From the NCBI RefSeq assembly GCF_947090785.1, contig NZ_OX352320.1:4577001-4641000 (forward strand): DNA of 64,000 nucleotides, read 5' to 3'. Made by a program: the position numbers and the translations under genes. The stretch's first letter is position 1; each line of letters begins with the position of its first letter. The notes under the pieces are model-generated. The model saw only the letters and a list, made by a program, of their open reading frames with translations. It was not told where the DNA came from and searched no databases. Source of the DNA: Rheinheimera sp. MM224. GTDB lineage: Bacteria; Pseudomonadota; Gammaproteobacteria; Enterobacterales; Alteromonadaceae. Positions 363 through 18,269 of this stretch are shown here, in pieces.

Positions 363-1073
363 TTATACGAAATCTATAAATATATTGGCGGTTAAACGCC
401 CACTGACCGGCGAACCGTCTATATCAGTAGCGACATCCACCAGTGAAGAGTGCAGCAGATTACCAGGGTAAATAATAAGTCTGTTCGCCTGATAGGGGAT
501 CTGATAGTACAGCTCATAATGCTCATTGCTTTGCACCTGATAACGCTGAGGTGGCGCACCATGAGTATCAATAAAGTTTTGTGCTGACTGGAAATAGTCC
601 TGCCGCCTTTGATCGGCCACCCGCTCAAAACCTGTAGGTTTATGCCGGAAAAAACCTGTGCTGCCATGAGGGCCGTCATTCAGGTAATGCAACAGCGCAA
701 AATAATAAGGCGCGCTGGTATCAAAATGTGGCATACATTGCAGCGGATGCAGGCTGTTTTCTGCTTGAGTGATCAGCGCATAAAACAGCATTTGTGGCTT
801 TAATCTGAGCTTTTCCGGCACCTGATAGACTTTATAAATCAGCTGATACAAAGCATTTAAGCTGGCGGCCACATAATCTTTTGGCAATACTGCACGCTGG
901 CCTGGGTAATAAGTTTGGTTCTCGCGCATAAAATCGCTGTGCTGAGCCTGCTGGCGTAAACCAGACAAGTCCAGAGCAAAGTTATCAATCATAATCAATG
1001 GCGTTTTTTCCAGCCCGAGATAGATAATTTCGGGCCGGATGGCGGTATTGACCTGATAATTCAGCGCTTCCAT
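363..1073 (-). CDS. DUF6445 family protein, probable 2OG-Fe(II) oxygenase-like fold
   Basis: About 236 residues, recognised as the DUF6445 family found beside tryptophan-halogenase-like genes in TBDT loci. Visible features are an HFD motif near residue 117, a later LLHSS, and GRLTANIF near the C-terminus. That spacing resembles the HxD...H...R set of double-stranded beta-helix Fe(II)/2-oxoglutarate oxygenases, but this is inference and no activity is known to me. The ATG at 1073 is preferred. A TTG at 1082 would add three residues and start one base after the halogenase TGA. It is the last gene of the SapC/cupin/halogenase series, and no clear terminator follows. There is no signal peptide, so it should be cytoplasmic. 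Confidence 0.75.
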   Translation of the reverse strand: MEALNYQVNTAIRPEIIYLGLEKTPLIMIDNFALDLSGLRQQAQHSDFMRENQTYYPGQRAVLPKDYVAASLNALYQLIYKVYQVPEKLRLKPQMLFYALITQAENSLHPLQCMPHFDTSAPYYFALLHYLNDGPHGSTGFFRHKPTGFERVADQRRQDYFQSAQNFIDTHGAPPQRYQVQSNEHYELYYQIPYQANRLIIYPGNLLHSSLVDVATDIDGSPVSGRLTANIFIDFV

Positions 1074-1083
1074 CCTGGTCAAC

Positions 1084-2577
1084 TCAGACTAAAGACGACT
1101 TACAATAATGCTGAATAAACTCATGGTGAGTCGGAAACTGACTCACAGTGCGTTTCACATTCTGTTTAATGCTCATCAGGAAATCATTCAGCTCGGAGTC
1201 CGGCATTAAATCGACAATAGGATGATACTGTTCTGGCATCAAACCCTGGCCAATCAGCACCTGCAACCAGGAGCTTTCGCCAAACAATTCCTGAGCAAAC
1301 TTATACACCTTGCCGGATTGTTTAAACAATTCCATCCGGTGGGCCAGCGTGTCCGGGATCTGCATATCTTTGCAGTAACGCCAGAACTTGGTATCAGTAC
1401 GCTCCGTGGCTTTGTAATGCAGGATGATAAAGTCGCGGATATTATCCATTTCGATTTTAGTCTGGCGGTTAAACTCAGCTACATCCGCAGGCACAATGCC
1501 GTGGGACGGAAACATCTGCAGCAAACGAATAATACTGCGATGGATCAAATGAATACTGGTCGACTCTAAAGGCTCGAGAAAACCACTGGATAAACCAATG
1601 GCCACACAGTTTTTATTCCAATGCTGACGGCGGGTGCCGGTTTTAAACTTAATTAAGCGTGGCTCAAACATCATCTCACCTTCGACATTCTCGATCAGTG
1701 TTTGTTTGGCTTCTGCTTCTGTCATAAATTTGCTGCAGAACACCAGGCCATTACCCACCCGGCTTTGCAGTGGGATTTTCCATTGCCAGCCAGCATCCCG
1801 GGCTATAGCGCGAGTGTACGCCACTGGCTCTTGTGTGGTTTTGGTTTGCACTGCATAAGCGCTGTCACAAGGTAACCAGTGACTCCAGTCTTCAAAACCT
1901 GTATTGAGTGTTTGTTCAATCAACAAAGCTCTGAAGCCGGTGCAATCGATAAATAAATCGCCTTCAATCAGCTCGCCGGATTCCAGCAATAAAGCACTGA
2001 TATTACCGTCCATATGCTGCTGAACTTCACGAATTTTACCTTCAATACGTTTAATACCATGCTGCTCAGACATGCGACGCAAAAACTTGGCATACAAGGA
2101 CGCATCCATATGGTAAGCGTGGTTCAGATCCTGATTTGGCAACACTGCAAAGCGGCCCTGACGAGCGCCTAAATGCTCGACACAGTAGTCACCGATTTCA
2201 GTCGCTATGCCTTTTTGTCTGCCTTTTACCCAAAAGTGCTGAAAGCCACAGGCCCAGCAGTCTTTGCCTAAAAATCCAAAGGAGTGAATATAGTCTTCGC
2301 CTACTGTTTTCCAGTTTTCAAACTGAATACCCAGCTTAAAAGTAGCATTGGTGGCTGCCATCACTTCAGATTCTTTGATATTCAGTAAGCGATGGAAGAT
2401 ATGCATAGTGGGGATAGTGGCTTCGCCGACTCCCACAGTGCCAATATCGTCAGACTCCACTAAAACCACTTCAAGGTTTTTGCCCAGCAATTTGGTCAGG
2501 CCCGCTGCTGTCATCCAGCCAGCTGTGCCACCACCTGCTATCACTACTTTTTTAATTCTGTTCTGTTCGTTGTTCAT
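1084..2577 (-). CDS. Flavin-dependent tryptophan halogenase family protein
   Basis: 497 residues, normal for the family. The N-terminus has the FAD-binding GGGTAG motif (residues 15-20). Lys81 in FKLGIQFENW aligns with the catalytic lysine of PrnA. WQWKIP at 264-269 is the WxWxIP signature that separates halogenases from monooxygenases. FLEPLEST at about 333-340 carries the conserved active-site glutamate. All key residues are therefore present. The protein would use reduced FADH2, halide and O2 to make an enzyme-bound halogenating species; the substrate is unknown. No flavin reductase gene is adjacent. It lies between a cupin-like and a DUF6445 gene behind a TBDT, a recurrent context in Alteromonadales and Caulobacterales. 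AGGGTGA precedes the ATG. Confidence 0.9.
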   Translation of the reverse strand: MNNEQNRIKKVVIAGGGTAGWMTAAGLTKLLGKNLEVVLVESDDIGTVGVGEATIPTMHIFHRLLNIKESEVMAATNATFKLGIQFENWKTVGEDYIHSFGFLGKDCWACGFQHFWVKGRQKGIATEIGDYCVEHLGARQGRFAVLPNQDLNHAYHMDASLYAKFLRRMSEQHGIKRIEGKIREVQQHMDGNISALLLESGELIEGDLFIDCTGFRALLIEQTLNTGFEDWSHWLPCDSAYAVQTKTTQEPVAYTRAIARDAGWQWKIPLQSRVGNGLVFCSKFMTEAEAKQTLIENVEGEMMFEPRLIKFKTGTRRQHWNKNCVAIGLSSGFLEPLESTSIHLIHRSIIRLLQMFPSHGIVPADVAEFNRQTKIEMDNIRDFIILHYKATERTDTKFWRYCKDMQIPDTLAHRMELFKQSGKVYKFAQELFGESSWLQVLIGQGLMPEQYHPIVDLMPDSELNDFLMSIKQNVKRTVSQFPTHHEFIQHYCKSSLV

Positions 2578-2621
2578 CTGTTCACCCTGTTGATTGGTGT
2601 CTTTATATTTTTAGTTGGTTG

Positions 2622-3644
2622 TCAGCGTTTTAATTTATTTAATAAATCAGCCCGGATCTGGCGCGCATTCAGCTCATCCAGTGGCTTAGTTAACATCTTT
2701 AAGGCATCTGGTTGAATATGATCTTGTGATATTTCATCGTGCTCAAAAATGTAGTAGTCAAAAATAGCTTTCCAGGCCTGACGCTGCGCCTTAGGCAAAC
2801 TGCGTAAGCTCAGCACCGCCATAGACAAAGCATTATTGGGTCGGCCTAAATAGGCTGGCGTATCGCGCCACCAGTGGCTGATCAGCACATTAAAAGCGTC
2901 CAACGCCTGCACGTGGTGCCACCACATGCTCGGAATAAATAACACATCGCCAGGTTCCAGCTCTGCCAGTTGTACATGCTGCAGAGCTTCGGCAAATTTA
3001 GGGAAACGCTCAAAATCAGGCGCGGCAAAATCCACCATGCTGACATCCTGACCGCCTGGCGCAAACTCCATAGGTCCCGGATACAAATTGGCAATTTGAT
3101 CAGGTGGAAATAAGGTAAAAGTGCGATGTCCGACTGCATTACAGGCCAAATTCTGCGGAAAATCATAATGAGCAGCAATGCGGGACTGATTACCAAGCCA
3201 GACACTGGTCAGCGGGCTGATACCTTCCATTGGTAAGGTATTGTGCTCTGCCAAACCCGGAAACCAATGGTTGATCTCCGTGGAGCCCATGTAATAGGTC
3301 GGTACTTGAGTTTGGCTGTTTAACGCAAAAAGGCGGTCCAATAACTGATTAAAGTCTATTTTACCGCCCTGATAATTAAAGCCATTTTGCTCTGGGTTAT
3401 AAAACACCCTGCCTTGCTGATCGGGATCAAGGTAACAGGCACTGACCGGAAGCCCCTGATAAAATTGACGAATATAATCTGCGGCAGACGAGGCTGACAC
3501 AAGACCCGCTTTGACCAGCGGCCAGTCTTTACACAAGGCTTTGAATATCAAAGGTTGATGGGCATTAGCTATTAAACTCAACGCATCAGCTAAGTCGCAT
3601 CCTTCCAGAGTTTTTACTTGTGCTAATGGCGTTGTGCTGTGCAT
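2622..3644 (-). CDS. Cupin-like (JmjC/Cupin_8) domain protein, putative Fe(II)/2OG oxygenase
   Basis: About 340 residues from the ATG at 3644. A TTG at 3665 would overlap the SapC gene by 8 bases, but the ATG has GGA five bases upstream and clears the SapC stop by 13 bases. HYD at about residues 159-161 and WWHH near 242-245 supply the HxD...H iron ligands of the Cupin_8/JmjC class. FTLFPPDQ follows the first ligand, as in asparaginyl and ribosomal hydroxylases. These enzymes hydroxylate peptides or proteins, but the target here is unknown. It is the second gene after SapC and sits 44 bases from the halogenase gene. Two putative oxygenases and a halogenase in one operon suggest oxidative tailoring of a shared substrate; this is inference. 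Confidence 0.8.
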   Translation of the reverse strand: MHSTTPLAQVKTLEGCDLADALSLIANAHQPLIFKALCKDWPLVKAGLVSASSAADYIRQFYQGLPVSACYLDPDQQGRVFYNPEQNGFNYQGGKIDFNQLLDRLFALNSQTQVPTYYMGSTEINHWFPGLAEHNTLPMEGISPLTSVWLGNQSRIAAHYDFPQNLACNAVGHRTFTLFPPDQIANLYPGPMEFAPGGQDVSMVDFAAPDFERFPKFAEALQHVQLAELEPGDVLFIPSMWWHHVQALDAFNVLISHWWRDTPAYLGRPNNALSMAVLSLRSLPKAQRQAWKAIFDYYIFEHDEISQDHIQPDALKMLTKPLDELNARQIRADLLNKLKR

Positions 3645-3657
3645 GGCTATCCAGACC

Positions 3658-4383
3658 TTACTCAAACTGCTTATTTTTTAACTGCAGCAAATGGCGAATA
3701 TTGGACTGAGATGCGATGGCCATATAAATTGCCTGCAGATAACCTTTCTGGTGCAGTTGAGCTAAAAGCTCTGGAGCTAAAGCGGCGAGGTTTTCTTCAT
3801 GAATAATGTAGAAACCTGCCAGTTGCTGCTTCTGGCCATTGCTGAAGGTTAAATCCAGGGTAAAGGATTCCAGCAGTTGATGCTCAAGCAACAGATCGAT
3901 AAAAGTTTTGCTGTCGAGCATGCCATGATGAATAGTTTCCAGCATCGAAGCGACTTCATCCAGATAAGGGCTGCTGCCACCAAAAGGTAAAAACAGAGCT
4001 TCGCCTTCAGTACTGCTGACACGCGGATTATTTAAGTCGATATGAATAACCCGTTGCGGCGTTTCAATACCGTCTTCACGCACCAGTTGCTGACCAATCA
4101 AAAACGGCTGACGTCTTAGCATCAGCGGCACATAACAACCACGCCAGTTATCCTGTTGTAAAAACAGGTTTTCCTGATCCTGGAAACCAAACAGGGTGAC
4201 AGAAAAAAACTGATTGCTGTTGTTGTCTTTATGAAAAAAAATTGGGTAGTGGGCCTGAACTGTACGGAATTCTTTAGGAAAAGTGACAGCAAACCAGACT
4301 GCATCACCATATTGTGCGCCTCTGGTCGTAATGACTTTCAGGTCTCTGTGTTCAACGCTGTTTAATAAAACATTCTTACTCAT
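3658..4383 (-). CDS. SapC family protein
   Basis: 241 residues resembling the SapC family (a name taken from a Campylobacter surface-layer region; biochemical role unknown). Visible blocks are the start MSKNVLLNSVEHRDLKV, FPKEFRTVQAHYPIFF, and ENLFLQQDNWRGCYVPLMLRRQPF. There is no signal peptide and no transmembrane segment. It is the first gene after the TBDT and its two intercistronic hairpins, and it is followed closely by the cupin-like gene. SapC genes recur directly beside TBDTs of the Xanthomonas/Caulobacter type, so a role with that receptor is likely but unproven. Confidence 0.8.
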   Translation of the reverse strand: MSKNVLLNSVEHRDLKVITTRGAQYGDAVWFAVTFPKEFRTVQAHYPIFFHKDNNSNQFFSVTLFGFQDQENLFLQQDNWRGCYVPLMLRRQPFLIGQQLVREDGIETPQRVIHIDLNNPRVSSTEGEALFLPFGGSSPYLDEVASMLETIHHGMLDSKTFIDLLLEHQLLESFTLDLTFSNGQKQQLAGFYIIHEENLAALAPELLAQLHQKGYLQAIYMAIASQSNIRHLLQLKNKQFE

Positions 4384-4500
4384 GCTATATCCCGACCGTT
4401 ACAGTGTATTTTTTAGTTATAGTTTGATTAAACCTGTCGCTTAACGCGAATGCTACTGGTTTTTTGTTTAAGTACGAAGCTATAGAAAAAATCAAGATAT

Positions 4501-4528
4501 AGCATCTTCAGCCAGGGCTGAAGATGCT
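4501..4528. other. Strong inverted repeat between TBDT and SapC genes
   Basis: A perfect 13-base stem, AGCATCTTCAGCC paired with GGCTGAAGATGCT, with a 2-base loop. No T-run follows it on the minus strand, so it is not a classical terminator. It lies between the TBDT stop and SapC and could protect or process the receptor mRNA 3' end. Confidence 0.6.
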
Positions 4529-4551
4529 GCTTCAAAAAATGGAAACAGAGT

Positions 4552-4571
4552 GGGCCATATCCTTATGGCCC
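4552..4571. other. Second hairpin just after the TBDT stop
   Basis: GGGCCATA pairs with TATGGCCC around a 4-base loop, 8 bases past the TBDT stop codon. There is no following T-run. Together with the stem at 4501-4528 it makes a structured intercistronic region that could lower expression of the downstream genes relative to the receptor. Confidence 0.5.
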
Positions 4572-4579
4572 TTTACAGC

Positions 4580-7546
4580 TTAGAAGCTGTAACGAGCACC
4601 CAGACTATAACGGGCACCTGATTCAACCAGACTTAACACCTGCTCTTTGGCACGACCGTGCACACGGATATGCTCATCAGTCACGTTTAAGGCTTCAATA
4701 AAAATGGTTAAACCTTCAACTTGTGGCAGGTCATAACTGGCTGACATATCAATCTGGTGATACGCCTCAGTGTATTTAGGATGGGCGCCTGTATCCTGAC
4801 CTTTAGAGTTCAGGAACTCGTCACGCCAGTTATAGGCAACACGAGCCTGGAAACCATCCATTTCATAAAACAGAATGGCGTTGGCAGTGTCACTTAAACC
4901 AATCAGAGCAGCCTGATCCTGCAACAGGAAATTGTTGTAGGACGTTTCGCTGTCGACCATGGTGTAGTTGGCAATAGTACCAAAACCAGTTTCTCCAAAG
5001 GCATGCTGTACCGCAAATTCCCAGCCATCAATCACTTCTGAGTTTGCGCCATTAGATGGTGTATTGATGTCGAAGACCAACGCATTGTCTTCACCTGTTA
5101 CACCATCAATAGTGCCGGCAGCAACGTCAACACCAGGGGCATTTGGATAATTTGCAAAAATCCAGTCGCGGATATCACCAGCATCGTTGCCTACAGCAGC
5201 AACAGCTTCAGCATATTTATCACCGTCAACTGGGTTTGGAATATTGTAGATAGTCGATTCCACAATAGAGTTGCTAATAAAATTACTGGTGTCTTTACGG
5301 AAGTAACCTAAAGAAACGTAACTTGCCGGAGAGTAGTACCATTCAGCCGATAAATCGATGTTTTTAGACTCTAAAGGCAACAGACTTGGGTTACCAGCAT
5401 TACCACCACCGCCAGCCCGGTTAGCTATAGTGTTCACTACTGTTCCACCCTGAATAGAAATATAGTCAGGACGACCTATAGTTTCACTATAAGCAGCACG
5501 TAACATTACATCGTCAACCACTTCAATATTGAAATTCAGGTTAGGTAATACGTAGTCGTAATCACCTGTTTTCGTCTGGAACTCACGCTCACCACTGGCT
5601 TGTAATACGATTTCAGTGTCAGCCACCCAACTGGCGCCATTGTATGCAGCGACAGCTGAAGTTGAAGTCACATCTGTTGTTTCATAACGTACACCTACAT
5701 GAACATCGTACGGCATGCCGGACAGTTCATTTTCGTAGTTGTACTGCACATAAGCAGATTGTGATTCTTCTTTCGTATAGCGGTTGACGTCACTATCGTA
5801 ATCGGTAGAAGGACAGAAGTTGGTACCACAATCACCGGCGCCAACAAAACCGTCCGGCGTGTATAACTCTTCAGCTCGGGCGCGTACTGTATTGAAATCC
5901 CAGAAGAAAATGGTATCAAGGATTTCAAAATCACGGTCTGGCATTAAAGAGAAATTACCTTTACCAGCGTTGAATTTGTCATGGATAGTGCCAGCTGGGA
6001 AATAGGAATCGTCGAAATCACCTGCCTGACCCACACCACCCCAGTCGTTACGCTGTACGTTGACTGATTTTGAATGGTTGTCCACGTCAGTCAGAGCAAT
6101 ACCGAAGTCGATGCTGCTGCCGTTTTCGAACACATATTCGCCATCAAACTGGTACTGGTCAATTTCAGACTTGTTGGTCGAGTTACCAAATACGCTACCC
6201 GTTACAATCATGTCTGAAGGTTTAACCGAGTTACCGCCACCCACTGACAATAAAGGCATTTCACCGGTAAAATCGGTCGCAGCACTGTTACGGATAAAAG
6301 CAGCAGTACTTAAGGTATTGCTTGAACCCAATACATGGTTTGGTTTGAATTCAGCGTCAGATTGGTGAGCATCAAAACTCAGTTTTAAGTTATCAGTGGC
6401 TTGCCATTCCAGGTTCAGACCTAATGAACCACTTTCGTTACGTACGCCAGAATCACCAGCGCCCATAGACAAGTCGGCTGGAGAACTGTATTCCTCAGAA
6501 TAAATCAGCGGAGAAGATACCGGACCATCAGTCCAGATGCTTTGTGAAGGTACATAGGTATACCAGGCAGACACATCATTGTACTGAGTGTCGATATCAT
6601 TGCGCATGTAGGTATAGTCAACGCTGGCCGTCAGATTATCAGTAGGAGCATACTGCAGCACTAACTGGCCATTGGTACGGGCACGTTGTTGTTCTTCAAA
6701 TTTGTAGATGGTTGTTTGTGGCACAGAGTACACATCATCAGCGCCAGGGCGGTTCACCTGATTATCGACAGGGATACTGCCCCACTGGCCAGAAGTATTA
6801 TCTACAGAACCAGCAAAACTGCGCCAGCCTGTACCTACGTTAGCCTGCTGGCTACCGCTTTCACGTTCCTGATAGCTGGCGGACACTAACACACCAAACT
6901 TATCGTCGCTAAAAGTCGTGGAATATAAACCTGCTAACTCAGGAGTAGCACTACCTTCTTCAGTCGATTTATCATCGACCATAGCAGCACTGAATACAGC
7001 TTTTTCGCCGCCAGCACTTAAAGGTTTTAAGGTTTGCACGTCAATAACCGAACCTATACCACCGGTAGGATTTTTAGCAAAACTGGTTTTATTGACTTCA
7101 ACACCGCTAATGGTATCGGCAGAAATATTGGCGAAATCAAAAGAACGTGAACCTGTAGTCACAGGCATTTGACGGCCGTTCAACGTAACTAAGTTAAAGT
7201 CCGGACCAAAACCACGGACAGATACTTTACTACCTTCACCGTTTACACGGTCAATAGATACACCGCTGATACGCTGCAGCGATTCTGCCAGATTAGTATC
7301 AGGGAATTTACCTATATCTTCAGCGGAGATTGCATCCACAATACCTGTGGATGAACGTTTGGTGTCCATAGATTTAATCAGACTACCGCGAATACCGGTG
7401 ACGCTGATCACTTCAATTTTTTCTTCGGCTTTTTTGGTGTTTTGCTCCTGCGCGTCATCCGCGAAGGCAGGCATAACAACGCCCACGCCAAGCACTAACG
7501 ACAGACTGGTGGCGAGTCTGGTCTTTTTGAACGTTTTGGATTTCAT
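4580..7546 (-). CDS. TonB-dependent receptor, Xanthomonas/Caulobacter type
   Basis: 988 residues, typical of the large TonB-dependent carbohydrate receptors (TIGR01782-like). It has a signal peptide with cleavage near MPAFA-DD, then a TonB-box-like EVISVTG and the plug domain: GRQMPV, then ISGVEVNKTSFAKNPTGGIGSVIDVQT. A long beta-barrel ends in the aromatic C-terminus YSLGARYSF. It should import an oligosaccharide too large for porins, using TonB/ExbBD energy. The neighbouring GH3 and GH1 suggest beta-glucans or beta-gluco-oligosaccharides. AGGGAA lies 7 bases before the ATG, and a LacI-type operator lies about 90 bases upstream. The SapC, cupin, halogenase and DUF6445 genes follow on the same strand. 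Confidence 0.92.
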   Translation of the reverse strand: MKSKTFKKTRLATSLSLVLGVGVVMPAFADDAQEQNTKKAEEKIEVISVTGIRGSLIKSMDTKRSSTGIVDAISAEDIGKFPDTNLAESLQRISGVSIDRVNGEGSKVSVRGFGPDFNLVTLNGRQMPVTTGSRSFDFANISADTISGVEVNKTSFAKNPTGGIGSVIDVQTLKPLSAGGEKAVFSAAMVDDKSTEEGSATPELAGLYSTTFSDDKFGVLVSASYQERESGSQQANVGTGWRSFAGSVDNTSGQWGSIPVDNQVNRPGADDVYSVPQTTIYKFEEQQRARTNGQLVLQYAPTDNLTASVDYTYMRNDIDTQYNDVSAWYTYVPSQSIWTDGPVSSPLIYSEEYSSPADLSMGAGDSGVRNESGSLGLNLEWQATDNLKLSFDAHQSDAEFKPNHVLGSSNTLSTAAFIRNSAATDFTGEMPLLSVGGGNSVKPSDMIVTGSVFGNSTNKSEIDQYQFDGEYVFENGSSIDFGIALTDVDNHSKSVNVQRNDWGGVGQAGDFDDSYFPAGTIHDKFNAGKGNFSLMPDRDFEILDTIFFWDFNTVRARAEELYTPDGFVGAGDCGTNFCPSTDYDSDVNRYTKEESQSAYVQYNYENELSGMPYDVHVGVRYETTDVTSTSAVAAYNGASWVADTEIVLQASGEREFQTKTGDYDYVLPNLNFNIEVVDDVMLRAAYSETIGRPDYISIQGGTVVNTIANRAGGGGNAGNPSLLPLESKNIDLSAEWYYSPASYVSLGYFRKDTSNFISNSIVESTIYNIPNPVDGDKYAEAVAAVGNDAGDIRDWIFANYPNAPGVDVAAGTIDGVTGEDNALVFDINTPSNGANSEVIDGWEFAVQHAFGETGFGTIANYTMVDSETSYNNFLLQDQAALIGLSDTANAILFYEMDGFQARVAYNWRDEFLNSKGQDTGAHPKYTEAYHQIDMSASYDLPQVEGLTIFIEALNVTDEHIRVHGRAKEQVLSLVESGARYSLGARYSF

Positions 7547-8062: not shown

Positions 8063-10609
8063 ATGTTTCGATACACCCCATTGGCGTTGTTGTGCAGTGC
8101 TGCCCTTGTGACGACTTTATCTGGTTGCGGCCAACAAAATACGGCCACTGAGAAAACGACAGAAGTCAAAGCAGCTCCAGCTGAAAGTCTGAATCTGTGG
8201 CCAGAATTAAAAAGCCCTTTAGCCAACAAGGATACAGAACAAAAAGTGCAGCAACTGCTGTCCGCTATGACCATTGAGCAAAAAGTGGCTCAGTTGATCC
8301 AGCCGGATATCCGTTGGATGACAGTGGAAGATATGCGCCAGTATGGTTTTGGTTCTTATTTAAATGGCGGTGGTGCTTATCCAAATGATAATAAAAACTC
8401 TACAGCAGCAGACTGGGTGGCTTTAGCTCAGGCGTATTACGATGCCGGTGTGGATTCAACTAAAGATGGCAGCAGCATTCCACCTATTTGGGGCACTGAT
8501 GCAGTGCACGGTCACAACAATGTAATTGGCGCGACAGTGTTTCCACATAATATTGGTTTGGGTGCAGCCAACAATGCACAGTTGGTGGAAGCCATAGGTA
8601 AAGCCACGGCAGCGGAAGTAGCAGCTACTGGCATTAACTGGATCTTTGCGCCTACTGTTGCAGTAGCCCGTGATGATCGCTGGGGCCGCAGTTACGAAAG
8701 TTATTCGGAAGACCCTACTGTGGTAAAAGAACTCGGTGCAGCATTAGTCAAAGGTATTCAGGGCAATGTTGGTTCTGACTTTATGCAAAGCGGCCGTTTA
8801 ATTGCCACAGCCAAACATTATCTGGGTGATGGTGGCACTGAAAACGGCAAAGATCAGGGCAATACATTAACCAATGAAGCCGATTTAGTGCGCCTGCATG
8901 CTCAGGGTTATATCAGTAGCCTGGATGCTGGTGTGCAAACTGTGATGGCGTCTTTTAACAGCTGGCACGGTGAAAAAATGCATGGTAATCATTACCTGCT
9001 GACCACTGTTTTAAAAGAACGTATGGGTTTTGATGGTTTAGTGGTTGGCGACTGGAACGGTCATGGCCAGCTTCCGGGTTGTACCAACAATAGCTGTGCC
9101 GCCGCTATCAACGCTGGTGTTGATATATTAATGGCACCGGAAGATGGTAAAGCGCTCTATACCAACACTCTGGCTCAGGCCAAAGCAGGTGAAATATCAG
9201 CAGCTCGTTTAGATGACGCCGTCAGCCGCATTTTACGAGTCAAAATTCGTGCTGGTTTATTTGAACACGGCAACCCTGCTCAATCAGCACTGGCGGGTAA
9301 AGCAGAATTGATTGGTCATGCCGATCATCAGGCTATTGCAGCTCAAGCCGTGCGTGAATCTTTAGTGTTGCTGAAAAATAATGCTCAATTATTGCCATTG
9401 GCTCCAAAACAAAAAGTACTAGTGACAGGTGATGGTGCTGACAATATTGGCAAACAAAGTGGTGGCTGGACTTTAACCTGGCAAGGCACGGGCAACGTCA
9501 ATGCAGACTTCCCGAATGGTCGTTCCATTTATTCAGGCATACAACAGCAAGTCGAAGCGGCCCAAGGCACAGTCGAGCTGAGTGCTGATGGCTCTTATCA
9601 GCAAAAACCTGATGTGGCTATTGTGGTGATAGGTGAAAATCCATACGCCGAATTTGATGGTGACATTCGCACTCTGGATTATCAGGCTGGTAAAAATACC
9701 GATCTGGAATTACTGAAAAAACTTAAGGCCGAGGGTATTCCGGTGGTGACAGTGTTTTTAAAGGGCCGGCCTTTATGGGTAAACCCTGAGCTGAATCAGT
9801 CCGATGCTTTTGTAGCGGCCTGGTTACCTGGTACCGCAGGTCAGGCTGTGGCAGAAGTGTTATTCAAAACTGCCGCTGGGGAAATCCAACATGACTTTAA
9901 AGGCAAACTGCCATTCTCCTGGCCAAAAACAGCAGATCAAACACCGTTAAATCAAGATGACACTAACTATGCTCCACTTTTCGCTTTGGGTTATGGCCTG
10001 ACTTATCAGGACAAAACCACTGTTGCCAATGACTTATCCGAGCAAATCAACAGTGCGCAAAGTACCAACAATGACAGCTTAAGTTTATTTGAGCGCCGCC
10101 CGGCCTCAGGCTACAGCCTGATTTTGCAGGACGAGGCAGGAGTAGTCACAGTCACAGGTAACAAAGCCAAAAGTGCCGACCAAAGCCTGAATTTAGCCGC
10201 AGTGAACTGGCAAAAACAGGAAGACGCTTTACTGTTGGACTGGGCTGCAAATTCTAAAGCCAAACTGGTACTGCAAGCTGCTGTGCCGCTGGATGCCAGC
10301 GGTTATAGTCAGTTGGTGGTCGATATGAAATGGAATGCGGCACCAACAGCAGCTGTCACTTTAGCTCAGTCTTGTGGTTCGGGCTGTGGTGGTACTTTGA
10401 ATTTAGCTGAACTGATCGGCAGTAAAGCTGCAGGCCAATGGCACAAAGTGGTGATTGATTTAAGTTGTTTTGCCAGCAAAGGCGCGGCGCTAAATCATCT
10501 GCAGCAACCTTTTGTGTTGCATAGTGAGGCGGCATACCAACTAAGTATTTCGAATATCCGTTTAACACCAGCCACAGCAACAGCTGATCTGAGTTGTGCG
10601 ACACATTAA
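8063..10609 (+). CDS. GH3 exo-beta-glucosidase/glucanase lipoprotein, ExoP-like
   Basis: 848 residues. The N-terminus is a lipoprotein signal with lipobox LSGC (Cys22), so the enzyme is probably membrane-anchored facing the periplasm or outside. Family 3 landmarks are KHYLGDGGTENGKDQG (251-266), the nucleophile Asp330 in VVGDW, and RESLVLLKNN starting the second domain. GENPYAEFDGD probably carries the acid/base glutamate. A C-terminal beta-rich domain from about residue 670 resembles the extra domain of the Pseudoalteromonas exo-1,3/1,4-beta-glucanase ExoP. It would release glucose from beta-1,3/1,4 chains. AGGA precedes the ATG. The sugar transporter gene follows after 46 bases, so they probably share a transcript. 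Divergent from the TBDT. Confidence 0.93.
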   Translation: MFRYTPLALLCSAALVTTLSGCGQQNTATEKTTEVKAAPAESLNLWPELKSPLANKDTEQKVQQLLSAMTIEQKVAQLIQPDIRWMTVEDMRQYGFGSYLNGGGAYPNDNKNSTAADWVALAQAYYDAGVDSTKDGSSIPPIWGTDAVHGHNNVIGATVFPHNIGLGAANNAQLVEAIGKATAAEVAATGINWIFAPTVAVARDDRWGRSYESYSEDPTVVKELGAALVKGIQGNVGSDFMQSGRLIATAKHYLGDGGTENGKDQGNTLTNEADLVRLHAQGYISSLDAGVQTVMASFNSWHGEKMHGNHYLLTTVLKERMGFDGLVVGDWNGHGQLPGCTNNSCAAAINAGVDILMAPEDGKALYTNTLAQAKAGEISAARLDDAVSRILRVKIRAGLFEHGNPAQSALAGKAELIGHADHQAIAAQAVRESLVLLKNNAQLLPLAPKQKVLVTGDGADNIGKQSGGWTLTWQGTGNVNADFPNGRSIYSGIQQQVEAAQGTVELSADGSYQQKPDVAIVVIGENPYAEFDGDIRTLDYQAGKNTDLELLKKLKAEGIPVVTVFLKGRPLWVNPELNQSDAFVAAWLPGTAGQAVAEVLFKTAAGEIQHDFKGKLPFSWPKTADQTPLNQDDTNYAPLFALGYGLTYQDKTTVANDLSEQINSAQSTNNDSLSLFERRPASGYSLILQDEAGVVTVTGNKAKSADQSLNLAAVNWQKQEDALLLDWAANSKAKLVLQAAVPLDASGYSQLVVDMKWNAAPTAAVTLAQSCGSGCGGTLNLAELIGSKAAGQWHKVVIDLSCFASKGAALNHLQQPFVLHSEAAYQLSISNIRLTPATATADLSCATH

Positions 10610-10655
10610 TACATAACAATAATGGCCGTCACCAGGCGGCCTGATGGGGAATAGA

Positions 10656-11876
10656 ATGCAAAGTGTTCAAAGCGCCGAAGTGCAGAGTTCCAGCACACCA
10701 ATCAGTAGCTGGGCTTTACCTGCTCTTACTTTTTTATTTTTTATCTGGGGTTTTATTACTTGTCTGAACGACATTTTAATTCCGCATTTAAAAGCCGTGT
10801 TCGACCTGACTTACACTCAGGCTATGTTGATCCAATTCTGCTTTTTTGGTGCTTATTTTGTGGTGTCTTTACCTGCGGGTGCGCTGATCAATAAGCTGGG
10901 TTACCAGAAAGGTATAGTGATAGGTTTAGCTATTGCAGGTTTTGGCACACTGAACTTCATTCCGGCCGCCAGCTTTCATAGTTACCCATGGTTTTTGGCC
11001 GCTTTATTTGTGCTGGCCTCCGGTATTACCATTTTGCAGGTTGCGGCTAACCCTTATGTCACAGTATTGGGCAATCCAAAAACTGCCTCCAGTCGCCTGA
11101 CCATGACCCAAGCCTTTAACTCTTTGGGTACCACAGTTGCCCCGCTTATTGGTGCGGCTTTGATCCTGAGTCAGCTCGACAGCACTGAAGGTGCTGATGC
11201 AGTACAACTGCCTTATCTGATACTGACAGTGGCTTTATTTGCTGTAGCTTTTGTGTTTTCGCGTCTGAAGTTACCAGAAGTTCAAAACACTACAGCAGCG
11301 GAAAAAATATCCATTAAGTCTCTATTGCCTTACACCCATTTATGGCTCGGTGCCTTGGGCATTTTTATGTATGTAGGCGCTGAAGTAGCCATAGGTTCAG
11401 TGATGGTCAACTTTATTGCTTTGCCTGAAATTACAGGACTAGCAGAAGCTGAAGCTGCGCATTACGTCGCCTGGTACTGGGGTGGCGCTATGGTGGGTCG
11501 TTTTGTGGGTGCTTTACTGATGCAACGCATAAACGCTGGCTTATTACTGGCCATTCACGCTGCTGCCGCCATGTTATTGCTGGTACTGGTGATTACAGGT
11601 CAGGGCCAACTGGCGTTATTTGCGCTACTGACCATTGGTATCGCCAACTCCATTATGTTCCCGACCATTTTTAGTCTGGCGTTACATGGTTTAGGCAAAT
11701 ACACCAGTCAGGGCGCGGGTTTATTGTGTTTGGCGATTGTAGGCGGCGCTTTAGTGCCTGTAGCTCAGGGCATGCTGGCCGACTCTTTTGGCCTGGCCTT
11801 GTCTTTTGTGTTGCCGGTGTTTTGTTACATCTATATCTGCTACTTCGGTTTACGCAGTCGCAAAGTGACAAGTTAA
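10656..11876 (+). CDS. MFS glucose/galactose-type transporter (FucP/GluP family)
   Basis: About 406 residues and 12 predicted transmembrane segments. Family features are the start [45 protein letters not shown] and [18 protein letters not shown], all characteristic of FucP/GluP proton-sugar symporters. It should take glucose or galactose released by the upstream GH3 into the cytoplasm. The ATG at 10656 is chosen because GGGGAA lies just ahead. An ATG at 10644 also exists, but its AGGCGG leader is inside a 5-base hairpin (GGCCG/CGGCC). It is the last gene of the rightward beta-glucan transcript and is followed by a structured 3' region. Confidence 0.9.
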
Positions 11877-12113
11877 GGCGAAAGCCGGGGCAAGGCGCGT
11901 ATTCCCGGTTGGCCTTGCTCATTTTATTCGCGCCATCCGTGGCCTCAACCGGCCAGTGGACAGAGCCACTGGCGCTCATCCGGACATTGCCAAACTGTTG
12001 GCAATGCTTCATCCGGCTTCGCCCTGACGGGCCAGCTAAAGCTGTTCAAAAACATTCCTGGTACTGGATGAGTATTCATCCCTTAAGGCTGAGTTAAACC
12101 TCAGCCTTTTTTT
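11877..12113 (+). ncRNA. Structured 3' region after the sugar transporter, candidate small RNA
   Basis: The 217-base gap contains three stems reading rightwards: GCAAGGC/GCCTTGC (11890-11918), GCCAGTGG/CCACTGGC (11952-11973) and CATTGCCAA/TTGGCAATG (11985-12006). A rho-independent terminator at 12085-12113 closes it. No coding frame looks real. A structured 3' untranslated region released as a small RNA is possible. A separate promoter was not identified. Evidence is structural only. Confidence 0.35.
12085..12113 (+). terminator. Rho-independent terminator of the GH3-transporter transcript
   Basis: AAGGCTGAG pairs with CTCAGCCTT around a 6-base loop and is followed by five T. The right arm lies inside the last codons of the leftward mdtC-like gene. 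On the minus strand there is no T-run, so it ends rightward transcription only. Confidence 0.8.
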
Positions 12114-15100
12114 CAGCTGCCGCGCCCGATACCAACAGCTCTGCCGATCTGGTACTGCGGAATTTACTTAACACCAGATAGACGGCTGGCGTACTGTATA
12201 AAGTTAACAACTGACTGACCAACAAACCTCCCACTATGGTGATACCCAAAGGCTGGCGCAGCTCTGAGCCTTCGCCCATACCAAACAGCAATGGCACGGC
12301 ACCTAACAAAGCAGCAAAGTTGGTCATTAAAATAGGACGCAAACGTTGTGCCGCCGCCAAAGCGACCGCTTCTTTCGGTGATAAACCCAGATCTCGTTCA
12401 GCATGCAAGGCAAAATCGACCAGCAAGATGGCGTTTTTCATCACTATGCCTATCAGCAAAAACAGCCCCAGCAGAGCTATCAGGTTAAAGTCGGTATTGC
12501 TGACATAAAGCGCCAGCAAAGCTCCTAAACCAGCACAAGGCAAGGTCGATAAAATGGTAATCGGCTGAATAGTGCTTTCATACAACACGCCGAGCAGCAG
12601 ATACACAGTTAAAATCACACCAATAATCAGCCAGAGCTGATCGCCGCTTTTAAACATGGCATTACGCTGATCTTCACCATTGATGGTATGAATGCCAGTT
12701 GGCACCATCAGACGCGCCAGCACGTTTTCTATGGCCGCAGAGGCTTGCTGTAAAGTCACACCAGGCGCTAAACCATAACCAATACCAACGGAAGCAAACT
12801 GGTTGTCGTGGCGGATACGGTCATTCGCCAGACTGTACTGGTAGCTGGCAATGCTGGATAAAGGCACCCTATTGCCATCTGCTGTCACCAGTTGCAGTTG
12901 CTTTAATACTTCAGGCTGAGCTGTATAACCTGGTGTCAGTTCCATCACCACACGGTATTGATTCATCTCATCGTACAAAGTAGCAACCTGCCGTTGTGAG
13001 AAAGAGTTATTCAGCAAGGTAGCAATGGTGCGCATATCCACACCTAAACGCTGTGCCGCTTCCCTGTCTATGGTTAAAGAAATTTGCTGTGCATCTTCGC
13101 CGCTGGGCGTATCCACATCCACCAGCTCCGGCAATTCCTGCATTTTTTCCGCGACTTGTTTGCTCCATTTGCGCAGCAGTTGCAAATCACCGGATAACAT
13201 CAGCAGCTCGTAGTCACTGCGGCCAAAAGGCGATGACAAACGGATGTCCTGATCCACATTCATAAACACCATGCCACCCGGTACTTTAGGGGCTGTAGCG
13301 CGAATACGATCCACCACCTGCTGGGCTGATATTTTACGCTCAGCCAGAGGTTTTAACCGCACACGCATCCAGCTGTTGCTGATGCCCATATCACCGCCGC
13401 TGGAGCCTGTCACATCAGCAATAGCGGGGTCTTTTAACAAATGCTGACGGAAAGCTTCAATTTTTGGCTGCATGATCTGAAAGGAGAAACCATCATCACC
13501 ACGAACAAAACCATTGAGCTGGCCTGTGTCCTGATCCGGCAATAAACCTGTTGGCACTTGAGTGTACAACCAGGCATTGGCAGCAAATAGCAGCACTAAT
13601 CCGGCCAAAAACCAGCGGTAATGATCTAAGCTCCAGGCCACGCTCTGATGATACTTCTGCTGAAACTTCTGAAAAGCTCCGGCTTCAGTGTCACCCGGCT
13701 TTTTGGCCTTCAGCAGTAACGCCGATAAGCTTGGCGTTAAGGTCAGCGAAATCACCAGACTGATCATCATGGCGGCAGCCAGCGTGATAGAAAACTCGCG
13801 GAATAAACGCTCGACCAAACCGCCCATAAATAAAATCGACAGGAAAATTACGACTAAAGCCAGGTTCATTGCCAGCAAGGTAAAACCAACTTCAGACGCA
13901 CCTTGCCGCGCAGCTTGCAAAGGAGTTAAACCACGTTCTATATGGCGTTTAATATTTTCGACTACGACAATGGCATCATCCACCACTAAACCTGTAGCGA
14001 CAATCAGCGCCATCACCGACAAGTTATTCAGCGAAAAATCACAGAGATACATCACGGTAAAAGAGCCAATCAAAGACACAGGAATAGCCAGACTTGGGAT
14101 CAGCGCACTGCGCAGGCTGCCTAAAAAGGCCCAGACCACCAGCACAACCAAGACCACAGCAATCAATAAACTGATTTGCGCTTCAGTTAAGGTAGCGCGG
14201 ATCACGGGGCTGCGATCCATCACCACAGCTAAATCAGCATCTGCTGGTATCAGTGCCCGCAACAACGGCATCTGTTGATAAATAGCATCTATGGTTTCAA
14301 CAATATTGGCACCAGTACGACGGCTGACCAATAAAATCACCGCGTTTTTATCGTTATGAAAACCAGCGCTGTAGCGGTTTTCAGTGGAGTCTGTCACTAA
14401 AGCTACATCTGATAAACGGATAGGCGCACCGTTGACATACTTCACCACTAACGACTGATAATCTGAGGCCTGACGTAAGGTCTGACTGGTCGCTAATTGC
14501 CAACGTTGATCGCTGCTTTCCAGCACACCCAAAGGCACTGAGGCATTAGCACCACTGATCGCGCTGCGTACTTCATCCAAAGCCACACCATATTGAGTCA
14601 GCATGCCCGGATTCAGTTGCACCCGCACAGCAGGCAAGGAAGCTCCAGCCACTTCCACTTCGCCCACACCAGTGATAGCCGCCAGTTTCTGTGCTAATAC
14701 AGTAGAGGCGGCATCGTATAAAGCACTGGAGGCTAAATGTTCAGAGCTTAGCGCCAGCGCCATCACAGGGGCCTGTGACGGGTTAAATTTGCGGTAACTT
14801 GGATTGCCCGGCATACCGGATGGCAACTGGCTGCGGGCGGCATTAATAGCAGCCTGTACTTCACGGGCCGCTTCATCCACATTGCGGTCCAAATCAAACT
14901 CCAGCCGTATTTGCGCTGAACCCTGATTACTGCTGGAGCTGATGCGGTTAATACCAGCAATACTACCTAAAGCCCGTTCCAGTGGCGTGGCAACAGTAGC
15001 GGCCATACTTTCAGGGCTGGCACCAGGCAAACTGGCGGTGACCACTATCATTGGAAAATCGACAGCAGGCAAAGGTGATACTGGCAATAAGCGCCAGCAC

Positions 15101-15180
15101 AACATGCCCAGCAGCAAAATAGCAGTGGCAATTAAGCCACTGGCCACAGGGCGCTGAATAAAGGGCTGAGCTAAATTCAT
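12094..15180 (-). CDS. mdtC: RND efflux pump inner-membrane subunit, MdtC-like
   Basis: 1028 residues, the normal size for HAE1-type RND pumps. N-terminal helix [21 protein letters not shown], then the porter domain starting [11 protein letters not shown]. The middle membrane segment contains [17 protein letters not shown] (motif A with the DD proton-relay pair) and [18 protein letters not shown]. The second half repeats the plan. It should form a heterotrimer with the MdtB-like subunit and expel drugs or bile-salt-like compounds with proton influx. ATGA overlaps the mdtB-like stop, so translation is coupled. No TolC-type outer-membrane gene is present, so a distant one must serve. The MdtC rather than MdtB assignment rests on being second in the operon and on similarity. 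Confidence 0.88.
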
Positions 15181-18100
15181 AGCACTTTCGCCTCAACTTC
15201 AGCTACCGCCTCTTTGCTGCTTTCTTTGCCACTGAAGTGGCGATCAAACCATAAATACACCACAGGCGTGGTAAAGAGCGTCAACACCTGACTGACTAAC
15301 AAACCGCCGACCATCACTAAACCTAAAGGCTGACGCAACTCCGCACCTGAACCGCTGGCCAGTAACAATGGAATGGCACCAAAGAGCGCAGCTAAAGTCG
15401 TCATTAGAATGGGCCGGAACCGCATTAAGGCCGCCTGATAGATAGCTTCGGTTGGCGATAAGCCCTGATGCCGCTGCGCTTCCAACGCAAAGTCGACCAT
15501 CATAATGCCGTTTTTCTTCACCAAACCTATTAGCAGCACTATGCCGATCACGGCAATCAGATCCAGCGGCTGGCCTGTGATGAGCAGCGCCAACAAAGCC
15601 CCCACTGTAGCTGAAGGTAAAGTCGACAATATGGTGACCGGGTGAATTAAGCTTTCATACAAAATACCCAGCACTATGTACATGGTGACTACAGCAGCCA
15701 GCACCAGCCAGAGCGTATTACTCAAGGACGCGCGGAAGGCTTCAGCTGCGCCCTGAAAGGTCAGCTCCACTTCGGCAGGCATTTGTAATTGTTGCTGCAC
15801 TTCTTCAATAGCAGCCACAGCTTCACCCAAGGAATAACCGGCAGCCAGGTTAAAAGACAAAGTAACAGAAGGGAATTGGCCCTGATGGTTAATCAATAAC
15901 TTGGCAGGTCGTTGTGTCACTTTAGCTACTGCAGATAAAGGCACAGGAGTACCAGAAGCCGAGCTGATATAGAGCTTATTCAGCGCATCAACACCGTTAA
16001 TCTGATCAGGGTCCACTTCCAAAATCACCCGGTACTGATTGGCCTGAGTAAATAAGGTCGTGACCTGACGCTGACTATAGGCGCTTTGCAGCACAGTACT
16101 GATTTGCGACACATTAATGCCTAAACGTGCAGCTGCAGTGCGGTCGATGTCGATATAAGCCTGTAAACCCTGCTGCTGTAAATCATGCGCCACTTCGGAT
16201 AATTCAGGTCGTTGTTGCAAGGCTTCAACCAAATCAGGTAACCACTGATTCAGCACCTCCTGATCGGGCGTGGTTAAGCTGAATTGATACTGAGTACGGC
16301 TGACTCTGTCTTCAATACTCAATTCCTGCACCGGCTGGAACCAGCCTTTTATACCAGGCACGGCCTGCACTTGCTGCTCCAGCTCACGGATCACCTCAAC
16401 TGCAGACAAATCGCGTTCGCCATGTTGTTTCAGATTGATCTGAATACGGCCACTGTTAATGCTGGTATTGCTGCCATCCACCCCAATAAAAGACGACAAA
16501 CTGCTGACATCCGGGTGCTGCAGAATATTTTCAGCCAGTTCCTGTTGGCGTGACGCCATAGCCTGAAAAGAAATATCCTGCGGTGCTTCAGTCACCACCT
16601 GAATCACACCACTGTCCTGCACAGGGAAAAAGCCTTTAGGCACAGCCAGATACAACAGAGCAGTTAATGCCACAGTCGCCAACATACTGAACATAGCTAA
16701 GGTTTGATGACGTAACACCCACTGCAAACCACGGCCATAAGCAGCAATAATGCGGTCCATTAAACCATTTTGATCATGATGCTCGGGCAGAGTTTTTAAT
16801 AGACGCGCACAGAGCATAGGGGTCAGAGTTAAAGACACCACCAGGGAGATCAGAATAGCCACAGCCAAAGTGACGGCAAATTCAAAAAACAGCCGGCCGA
16901 CCACATCTGCCATAAAGAGCAGAGGGATAAGCACAGCGATCAGCGAAAAGGTCAGGGATATCAGCGTAAAACCAATTTCTTTGGCGCCTTTCAGTGCAGC
17001 TTCCATTGGGGATGCACCTTGTTCACGGTGCCGCGCTACGTTTTCCAGCATGACGATGGCGTCATCCACCACAAAACCTGTGGCTATGGTCAAGGCCATT
17101 AAGGTCAGGTTGTTAACAGAGAAATCCAGCAACACCATCACAGCAAAAGTACCAATCAAGGACAAAGGCACGGCCAGACTAGGGATAATAGTGGCCGGAA
17201 TACTGCGTAAAAATGCGAAGGTGACTAATACCACCAGCACTATGGCGAAGATCAGCTCTTTTTGCACATCACGCACTGAAGCACGAATACTGTGAGTCCG
17301 GTCTGTTAAGACTTCCACTTTCACAGCAGCAGGCATAGTGGCCGTCAGTTGCGGCAATAACTCCTGCACTCTGTCTGCGACATCAATCACATTGGCACCG
17401 GGCTGGCGCTGAATATTGACCAGCACAGCAGCTTTTTGGTTGGCCCAGGCCGCAAGAAAACGGTCTTCAGCGCCATTTTCAATTTTAGCCACATCTTTTA
17501 AGCGGATAGGCGCGCCTTCGCGATACGCAATAATCAGCTCTTTGTATTCGTCTGTGCTGCGAATTTGATCATTGGCTTCAAGCATGGTGGAGCGAAAAGC
17601 ACCATCAAAACTGCCTTTTGGTTGATTGGTATTGGCTGCGGCTATCGCAGTACGCAGGCTTTCAACACTTAGATCCAGACTGGCTAAAGCGGCAGGATTA
17701 GCTTTGACCCGAATGGCAGGGCGTTGACCACCAGCCAGACTGACCATACCCACGCCCGTCAACTGAGCTAACTTCTGTGCCATACGGGTATCGACTAAAT
17801 CATAGACTGCAGGCAATGGCAAAGTATCAGAGCTGACGGCTAAGGTCAGAATAGGCGCGTCGGCCGGATTCACTTTGCGATACACAGGTGGTGTAGGTAA
17901 ATCATTAGGTAATAACGAGGAAGCCGTATTAATAGCAGCCTGCACTTCCTGTTCGGCCACACCCATATCGACCACTAAGGCAAATTGCAGCGTAATCACC
18001 GATGCACCGGCCGAGCTATTGGACGACATTTGTTTCAGGCCTGGTATCTGGCCTAAACGCCGTTCTAAGGGCGCTGTAACTGTGCGCGCCATAATGTCAG

Positions 18101-18266
18101 GGCTGGCACCAGGGTTAAAGCTAAACACCTGAATAATAGGGTAATCGACCTGAGGCAAGGCAGCCACAGGCAATAAACGCCAGCTCAAAATACCGGCGAT
18201 TAGAATCGCCAGCATCAATAACGACGTCGCTACAGGGCGTAAAATAAAAGGCTTGGACAGGTTCAT
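15177..18266 (-). CDS. mdtB: RND efflux pump inner-membrane subunit, MdtB-like
   Basis: About 1029 residues. It starts [20 protein letters not shown] and [11 protein letters not shown], as in Mdt[21 protein letters not shown] carries the DD pair of the proton relay. Two ATGs stand side by side (18269 and 18266). AGGGG lies 4 and 7 bases ahead respectively, so 18266 has the better spacing. The mdtA-like stop at 18270 abuts the start, and the stop overlaps mdtC by 4 bases, giving a tight three-gene operon. It works with the MdtC-like subunit and the MdtA-like adaptor across the envelope. Confidence 0.88.
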
Positions 18267-18269
18267 CAT

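Follow-up and report, generated by a model that had tools for sequence, protein, structure and literature searches.

Gene content of the locus

Within the window, the whole 64,000-nucleotide stretch of Rheinheimera sp. MM224 analysed here, five open reading frames (ORFs) on the minus strand between positions 363 and 7546 encode, in order, a TonB-dependent receptor (TBDT), SapC, a Cupin_8 protein, a flavin-dependent halogenase and a DUF6445 protein. A first-pass annotation, made from the sequence alone, had described this leftward run, and both the ORFs and profile scores above the Pfam and TIGR cut-offs confirm it. The receptor at its head (4580..7546; 988 aa) belongs to the TIGR01782 (TonB-Xanth-Caul) subfamily, with 660.9 bits against a cut-off of 310, and matches the Plug and barrel profiles with 69.6 and 82.7 bits (cut-offs 23.9 and 27). 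Behind an intercistronic gap containing two hairpins (4384..4579) follow SapC (PF07277; 3658..4383; 236.2 bits, cut-off 28.9), a Cupin_8/JmjC-like putative 2-oxoglutarate (2OG) oxygenase (2622..3665; 226.6 bits, cut-off 27.4), the halogenase (Trp_halogenase, PF04820; 1084..2577; 642.2 bits, cut-off 21) and DUF6445, a predicted Fe(II)/2OG oxygenase of the prolyl/lysyl-hydroxylase type (363..1082; 226.7 bits, cut-off 24). By ORF ends, SapC and Cupin_8 overlap by 8 bp, Cupin_8 and the halogenase are 44 bp apart, the halogenase and DUF6445 1 bp, and the receptor and SapC 196 bp. The real starts of Cupin_8 and DUF6445 may lie further inside the listed ORFs, as the listed start codons are TTG.

Catalytic motifs and folds of the encoded enzymes

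All motifs that the first-pass annotation had named are present as stated: GGGTAG, Lys81 and WxWxIP in the halogenase, HxD...H in Cupin_8 and HFD...R in DUF6445. The halogenase carries GGGTAGW, K81, WQWKIP (W264, W266, I268 and P269) and FLEPLEST with E338, i.e. the GxGxxG, catalytic lysine, WxWxIP and catalytic glutamate that define a variant A flavin-dependent halogenase (PF04820). With these motifs intact, it is predicted to halogenate an aromatic substrate. The catalytic lysine and glutamate are retained in 99/99 halogenases scoring at least 150 bits. Two further forms were observed. An upstream halogenase subtype (L080:7169-8704 and similar) keeps the lysine and glutamate and has WxWxIG or WxWxIA in place of WxWxIP in 26/30 cases. 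A very diverged family member of approximately 460 aa (59-74 bits), which lacks both catalytic residues, adjoins intact halogenases at L083:9094-10470 and in L074, L088, L089, L095 and L096.

In Cupin_8, the triad H166xD168...H250 is invariant (each 1.00 of 44 homologues), and the nearest solved relatives among the PDB matches are FIH and JMJD5. The first-pass annotation had also proposed that DUF6445 is an oxygenase, and the fold check bears this out: the protein has a double-stranded beta-helix, with OGFOD1, lysyl hydroxylases and PHD2 as nearest folds, and a metal-site pattern HxD...H...R. Its residues H119xD121, H211 and R229 are each at 1.00 in an alignment of 84 homologues, which left out the weak relatives L146 and L147, and again in a second set of 36. 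The DUF6445 sequence profile matched no 2OG oxygenase among solved structures, and we regard DUF6445 as a predicted Fe(II)/2OG oxygenase. Structural comparison of SapC gave no match of note.

Linkage to receptors across genomes

The five-gene arrangement is far beyond chance and recurs over genera and classes. In 147 related genomes (halogenase E <=1e-60, TIGR01782 E <=1e-90), a TIGR01782 receptor was found in 103, the halogenase in 95, SapC in 94 and DUF6445 in 58; two of the searches were capped at 10 and 5 scored candidates per genome, genomes missing from the results were counted as without a match, and kinship was ignored. The halogenase is found in 94/103 genomes with such a receptor against 1/44 without, SapC in 92/103 against 2/44 and DUF6445 in 57/103 against 1/44. 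A control genome, that of Caulobacter vibrioides, likewise has matches to PF04820, PF07277 and TIGR01782.

At the level of single loci, the window genome and five further genomes (E <=1e-40 in the latter) hold 43 halogenases. Of these, 38 belong to runs of same-strand genes that begin with a TBDT, which is a TIGR01782 receptor in 36 cases and another TBDT in two (L022, L188). Three others, a pair in L159 and one in L184, have a TBDT within 4 kb but are not part of a TBDT-headed run, and the last two (L189, L190) have none nearby. The window genome contributes 5/5 to the TBDT-headed runs, with a sixth, weak family match (38 bits, 1979052) left uncounted, its stretch L038 matching none of the five window proteins; the five further genomes contribute 33/38, one of them behind a non-TIGR01782 TBDT (L188). 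The six genomes together have 61 TIGR01782 receptors; 24 of these head a run that includes a halogenase, a trait that needs at least 8 changes on the receptor tree. A second receptor-oxygenase-halogenase architecture was seen in the window genome at L022:8649-14256, where a non-TIGR01782 TBDT is followed by a TPR protein with a terminal 2OG-FeII_Oxy_5 domain and then by a halogenase.

Viewed from DUF6445, 55/80 neighbourhoods of DUF6445 matches, all outside the window genome, contain a run headed by a same-strand TBDT, in seven gene combinations, SapC-Cupin-halogenase-DUF6445 being the commonest (26). The other 25 comprise four cut by contig ends (L070, L084, L097, L102), nine with a receptor outside the DUF6445 run and twelve with no TIGR01782-type receptor. 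Titled genome records were also scanned; of the 592 halogenase loci confirmed there, the best 80 fall in the Gamma-, Beta- and Alphaproteobacteria, including Shewanella, Alteromonas, Colwellia, Massilia, Duganella, Sphingomonas, Lysobacter and Xanthomonas. A run from TBDT to halogenase is present in 64/80 of these best loci, nine are cut at a contig edge and seven are without one, one of these with a split TBDT upstream; SapC is present in 61/80 and Cupin in 64/80. This set leans towards TBDT-linked halogenases, because the query alignment (A3) consisted of 12 halogenases all taken from TBDT loci. The recurrence beside TBDTs stated in the first-pass annotation thus extends far beyond its clade.

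The genes also appear to be inherited together. Across 94 complete cassettes, many of them close relatives, pairwise distances correlate at 0.913 between receptor and halogenase, 0.902 between receptor and SapC, 0.876 between receptor and Cupin and 0.871 between halogenase and Cupin.

Glycan context

Divergent from the cassette and outside it, the window encodes a GH3 glycosidase (8063..10609, plus strand) and a major facilitator superfamily (MFS) sugar transporter of the gluP subfamily (10644..11876, plus strand), both assigned by profile match. These neighbours suggest a beta-glucoside as ligand of the window receptor and its locus, and they are the sole hint (8063-11876) that the enzymes are induced together with a glucan receptor. 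Two tandem AcrB-type RND pump genes (12094-18269) adjoin the sugar locus.

A glycan enzyme was found in 12/17 halogenase loci whose neighbours were scanned, with few proteins scanned per locus. Besides the GH3 and MFS of the window, they comprise a SASA esterase with GH3 (L020), GH30 (L023), GH3 (L161), GH31 with pullulanase (L024 and L152, one also with cyclomaltodextrinase), GH20 (L149, L157, L181), GH94 (L150), an agarase-type carbohydrate-binding module (L178) and GH36 with GH42 (L171). The remaining five loci (L022, L154, L170, L177, L180) hold transporters, a LacI regulator, oxidases and similar. A GH3 relative is found in 29/80 of the DUF6445 neighbourhoods. The window genome also has a TBDT-Cupin-SapC run without a halogenase adjoining a GH20 gene (L025:6392-11126).

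Judged by these neighbours, the cassette is indifferent to the glycan type. The glycans concerned (starch, chitin-type, beta-glucan, galactoside and agarose-type) contain no aromatic ring, and the shared element would therefore be the receptor or its apparatus; likewise, because the cassette accompanies receptors for very different sugars, the sugar is a less likely target of modification than a protein, either the receptor or one of its partners. The earlier remark that sugar breakdown does not explain the oxidative enzymes is strengthened, as the gene set adjoins enzymes for unrelated glycans.

Proposed role of the cassette

Based on these analyses, we propose that the four genes behind the receptor form an inherited protein-tailoring cassette for sugar-type TBDTs. 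By a crude hydropathy count, 70% of the TBDTs begin with a hydrophobic N-terminal stretch, compared with 0-8% of the cassette enzymes. FADH2 and 2-oxoglutarate are cytoplasmic. Taken together, these two points imply that the substrate should pass through the cytoplasm, as the unfolded receptor precursor does. The halogenase and the two 2OG oxygenases would act there, with SapC helping or directing them, so that side chains of a polypeptide are halogenated and hydroxylated ahead of export. The likeliest polypeptide would be the unfolded receptor precursor encoded alongside, and the second a partner protein of the uptake apparatus. A possible benefit is that aromatic side chains in ligand-binding loops are tuned for carbohydrate binding.

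We put forward this proposal, with the receptor precursor as the most likely substrate, tentatively and at somewhat below an even chance. At the sequence level it builds on the gene order, the intact catalytic residues, the oxygenase fold predicted for DUF6445, the co-inheritance with the receptor and the indifference to the glycan; what we infer from them is that the substrate is a protein, that this protein is the receptor, which kind of residue is altered and what the benefit may be. The interpretation given in the first-pass annotation is thereby partly supported, and sharpened: the gene set would be a widespread cassette for oxidative tailoring that goes with sugar TBDTs regardless of their ligand. 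A bolder version, which we consider doubtful, is a combinatorial post-translational code on TBDTs, in which halogen and hydroxyl groups would be written before export in many proteobacteria by a co-inherited toolkit, in which SapC is the adaptor for a single intact halogenase or a pair of them and for no more than two 2OG oxygenases; this would then be the native role of halogenases of the Xcc4156/BrvH type.

For many 'tryptophan halogenases', a large group, the lack of a known native substrate holds back the understanding of their biology as well as their use as catalysts. That they sit in sugar-receptor runs in three classes of proteobacteria, irrespective of the sugar, narrows the choice to proteins linked to the receptor and opens a direct proteomics test. 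If receptors are indeed halogenated or hydroxylated, this would add a new layer of outer-membrane biology.

Receptor residues and the intercistronic gap

Several observations weigh against the proposal. To begin with, no modification has so far been seen. A stable operon alone would also give the co-inheritance described above. Twelve of the 80 DUF6445 neighbourhoods are without a TIGR01782-type receptor (L136 among them has another TBDT-like protein), and in L138, L141 and L143 the stretch contains SapC and DUF6445 with neither a halogenase nor a TIGR01782-type TBDT, which suggests that SapC and DUF6445 are a minimal pair. Furthermore, a tree-aware test with 8 independent pairs covered 523 residue states of the receptors and found no state that clearly follows the presence of a halogenase next to the receptor. 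Its power was low, as fewer than 6 differing pairs cannot reach 0.05; the best state averaged 4.2 pairs for and 0.02 against. The frequency of W907 drops from 61/64 receptors with cassette genes behind them against 3/18 without, one of these three being a truncated receptor whose cassette lies outside the stretch (L083, compare L072), to 15/24 against 9/37 when the 61 TBDTs of the six genomes are taken as an unbiased set. Finally, the sister receptors L151 and L182 keep W502, W640 and W907 without an adjacent cassette. The earlier suggestion was that the three enzymes may tailor one receptor-linked substrate or the receptor itself; that all modifications fall on one substrate, and that this is the receptor, are both tentative.

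Two sets of residues were considered as marks of the halogenase. W907, W736 and W502 were raised as a signature by the 64 TBDTs with cassette genes behind them and the 18 without, and later tests gave no clear tracking. F426 is present in 15/24 against 2/37 receptors of the unbiased set but tracks the halogenase in 3.3 of 8 independent pairs and is unproven. In a separate comparison of 100 full-cassette receptors with 36 without cassette genes, W502 and W907 are each found in 100/100 against 9/36, W328 in 99/100 against 17/36 and W640 in 97/100 against 5/36. Because the sister receptors retain both, we take W502 and W907 as clade marks and as candidate sites only. Cassettes elsewhere in the genomes of L151 and L182 make action in trans possible. 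The residue-tracking test neither proves nor excludes the receptor as substrate.

A last point against the proposal is found in the gap between receptor and SapC, where the first hairpin (4571-4552) was called terminator-like, albeit in a weak scan, which would split the receptor from the enzymes. An equally weak promoter scan, with 13 sites against 13.9 in shuffled sequences, placed 0 minus-strand promoter-like sites in the gap. Both hairpins are recognisable in an alignment of 11 same-genus sequences, the second with changes in both arms in some of them, as judged by eye. It is possible that they form an attenuator or an mRNA-stabilising element 3' of the receptor message. In our reading, the run is one operon with attenuation or differential stability, the alternative being that the enzyme block is transcribed separately.

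Alternative explanations

The explanation that best survives next to a receptor substrate is that the tailoring is directed at a different shared protein or a short peptide, with the receptor no more than co-regulated. SapC, a partner of the TonB/ExbD type or a peptide from a gene at another site would be examples. We consider this unlikely, yet to be taken seriously, in agreement with the presence of SapC (61/80) and Cupin (64/80) in the best 80 of 592 halogenase loci, with the SapC-DUF6445 pairs that occur without a TBDT or halogenase nearby, and with the lack of clear residue tracking. However, six halogenase-only runs are without SapC (L023, L024, L152, L158, L167, L185), so SapC is not an obligatory substrate, and the TBDT-SapC gap, the sole place inspected for short peptides, holds just two minus-strand ORFs, both with TTG starts and of 35-36 aa, in a stretch with indels among relatives.

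Less probable still is a small substrate, aromatic or indole-like, from which a signal or defensive halometabolite would be made during glycan feeding. BrvH and the Xanthomonas campestris halogenases accept free indole or indole derivatives in vitro (PMC5945002, PMC7336383), but the BrvH authors, given the low activity on indole, questioned whether it is what the enzyme acts on in nature (PMC5945002). Moreover, no peptide-synthetase or polyketide gene was found among 40 neighbouring proteins scanned as a sample, and FIH- and P4H-type oxygenases would be atypical of such a pathway.

A little further down, we place the view that these Trp_halogenase homologues do not halogenate in vivo and instead hydroxylate, or make hypohalous acid for another purpose. 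It draws on QhpG, a halogenase-like flavoenzyme reported to hydroxylate protein tryptophan (PMC7876137), and on the upstream subtype, which mostly departs from WxWxIP at the proline. Against it stand the catalytic lysine and glutamate, kept in 99/99, and the bromination of model substrates in vitro described for BrvH and Xcc4156 (PMC5945002, PMC7336383).

It is very improbable that the glycan, once imported, or the groups that decorate it would be modified by the enzymes in the cytoplasm: the genes do adjoin glycosidases and sugar transporters, but one gene set accompanies enzymes for five kinds of glycan, all free of aromatic rings.

Comparison with known systems

The cassette resembles the CUT loci of Xanthomonas and Caulobacter in that a TBDT is accompanied by a glycosidase and a sugar transporter. 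A word search of the main text of the CUT-locus paper (PMC1790865) found no mention of halogenase, SapC or hydroxylase, the words halogenase and SapC are absent from the main text of the Shewanella sugar paper, and the word 'TonB' does not occur in the main texts of the halogenase papers searched, including PMC5945002 and PMC7336383. A full-text literature search found no description of a linkage between halogenases and TBDTs; matches were judged by title and start of abstract, and subscription papers were thinly covered, so that a prior description is possible.

Among enzymes that act on peptidyl tryptophan, MibH (5uao), a tryptophan halogenase of the ribosomally synthesised and post-translationally modified peptide (RiPP) class, is described as halogenating tryptophan solely within its cognate peptide (PMC5945002). 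It differs in its small ribosomal peptide substrate and matches the window halogenase far more weakly (178 bits) than the closest solved structures do. The reported account of QhpG is that of an FAD monooxygenase resembling FAD-dependent halogenases which dihydroxylates peptidyl tryptophan in the cytoplasm (PMC7876137). This agrees with the proposed cassette function, in that a halogenase-like flavoenzyme acts on protein tryptophan in the cytoplasm. LodB and GoxB are likewise maturases that alter tryptophan of tryptophylquinone proteins. The window halogenase is, however, distinct from these maturases, scoring 34.4 of 240 and 21.2 of 400 bits with the QhpG and LodB NCBIfam models, below the equivalog cut-offs, as do cassette halogenases in general (approximately 20-38 bits), and no radical-SAM or protease gene is found among the five window genes. 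The two putative oxygenases have metal triads and fold in common with FIH and JMJD5 (Cupin_8) and with OGFOD1, PHD2 and the lysyl hydroxylases (DUF6445), at low identity. FIH and OGFOD1 act on proteins.

The closest solved structure to the window halogenase is that of Xcc4156 (6y1w; 670 bits), aligned with two single-residue gaps over 491 residues, followed by 9luq and, in third place, BrvH (6frl; 483 bits). A Xanthomonas locus (L268) has the same TBDT-SapC-Cupin-halogenase order, its halogenase being 50% identical to that of the window. Neither Xcc4156 nor BrvH is reported to halogenate free tryptophan; both have open active sites, and the authors, who did not know the native substrates, proposed larger substrates or peptides (PMC7336383, PMC5945002). 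Xcc4156 is further reported to be without the backbone-binding loops of free-tryptophan halogenases (PrnA/RebH type) (PMC7336383). The catalytic motifs are common to both enzymes and the window halogenase. However, Xcc4156 and BrvH have been studied as single enzymes, whereas the window halogenase sits in a receptor-headed run together with SapC and two putative 2OG oxygenases.

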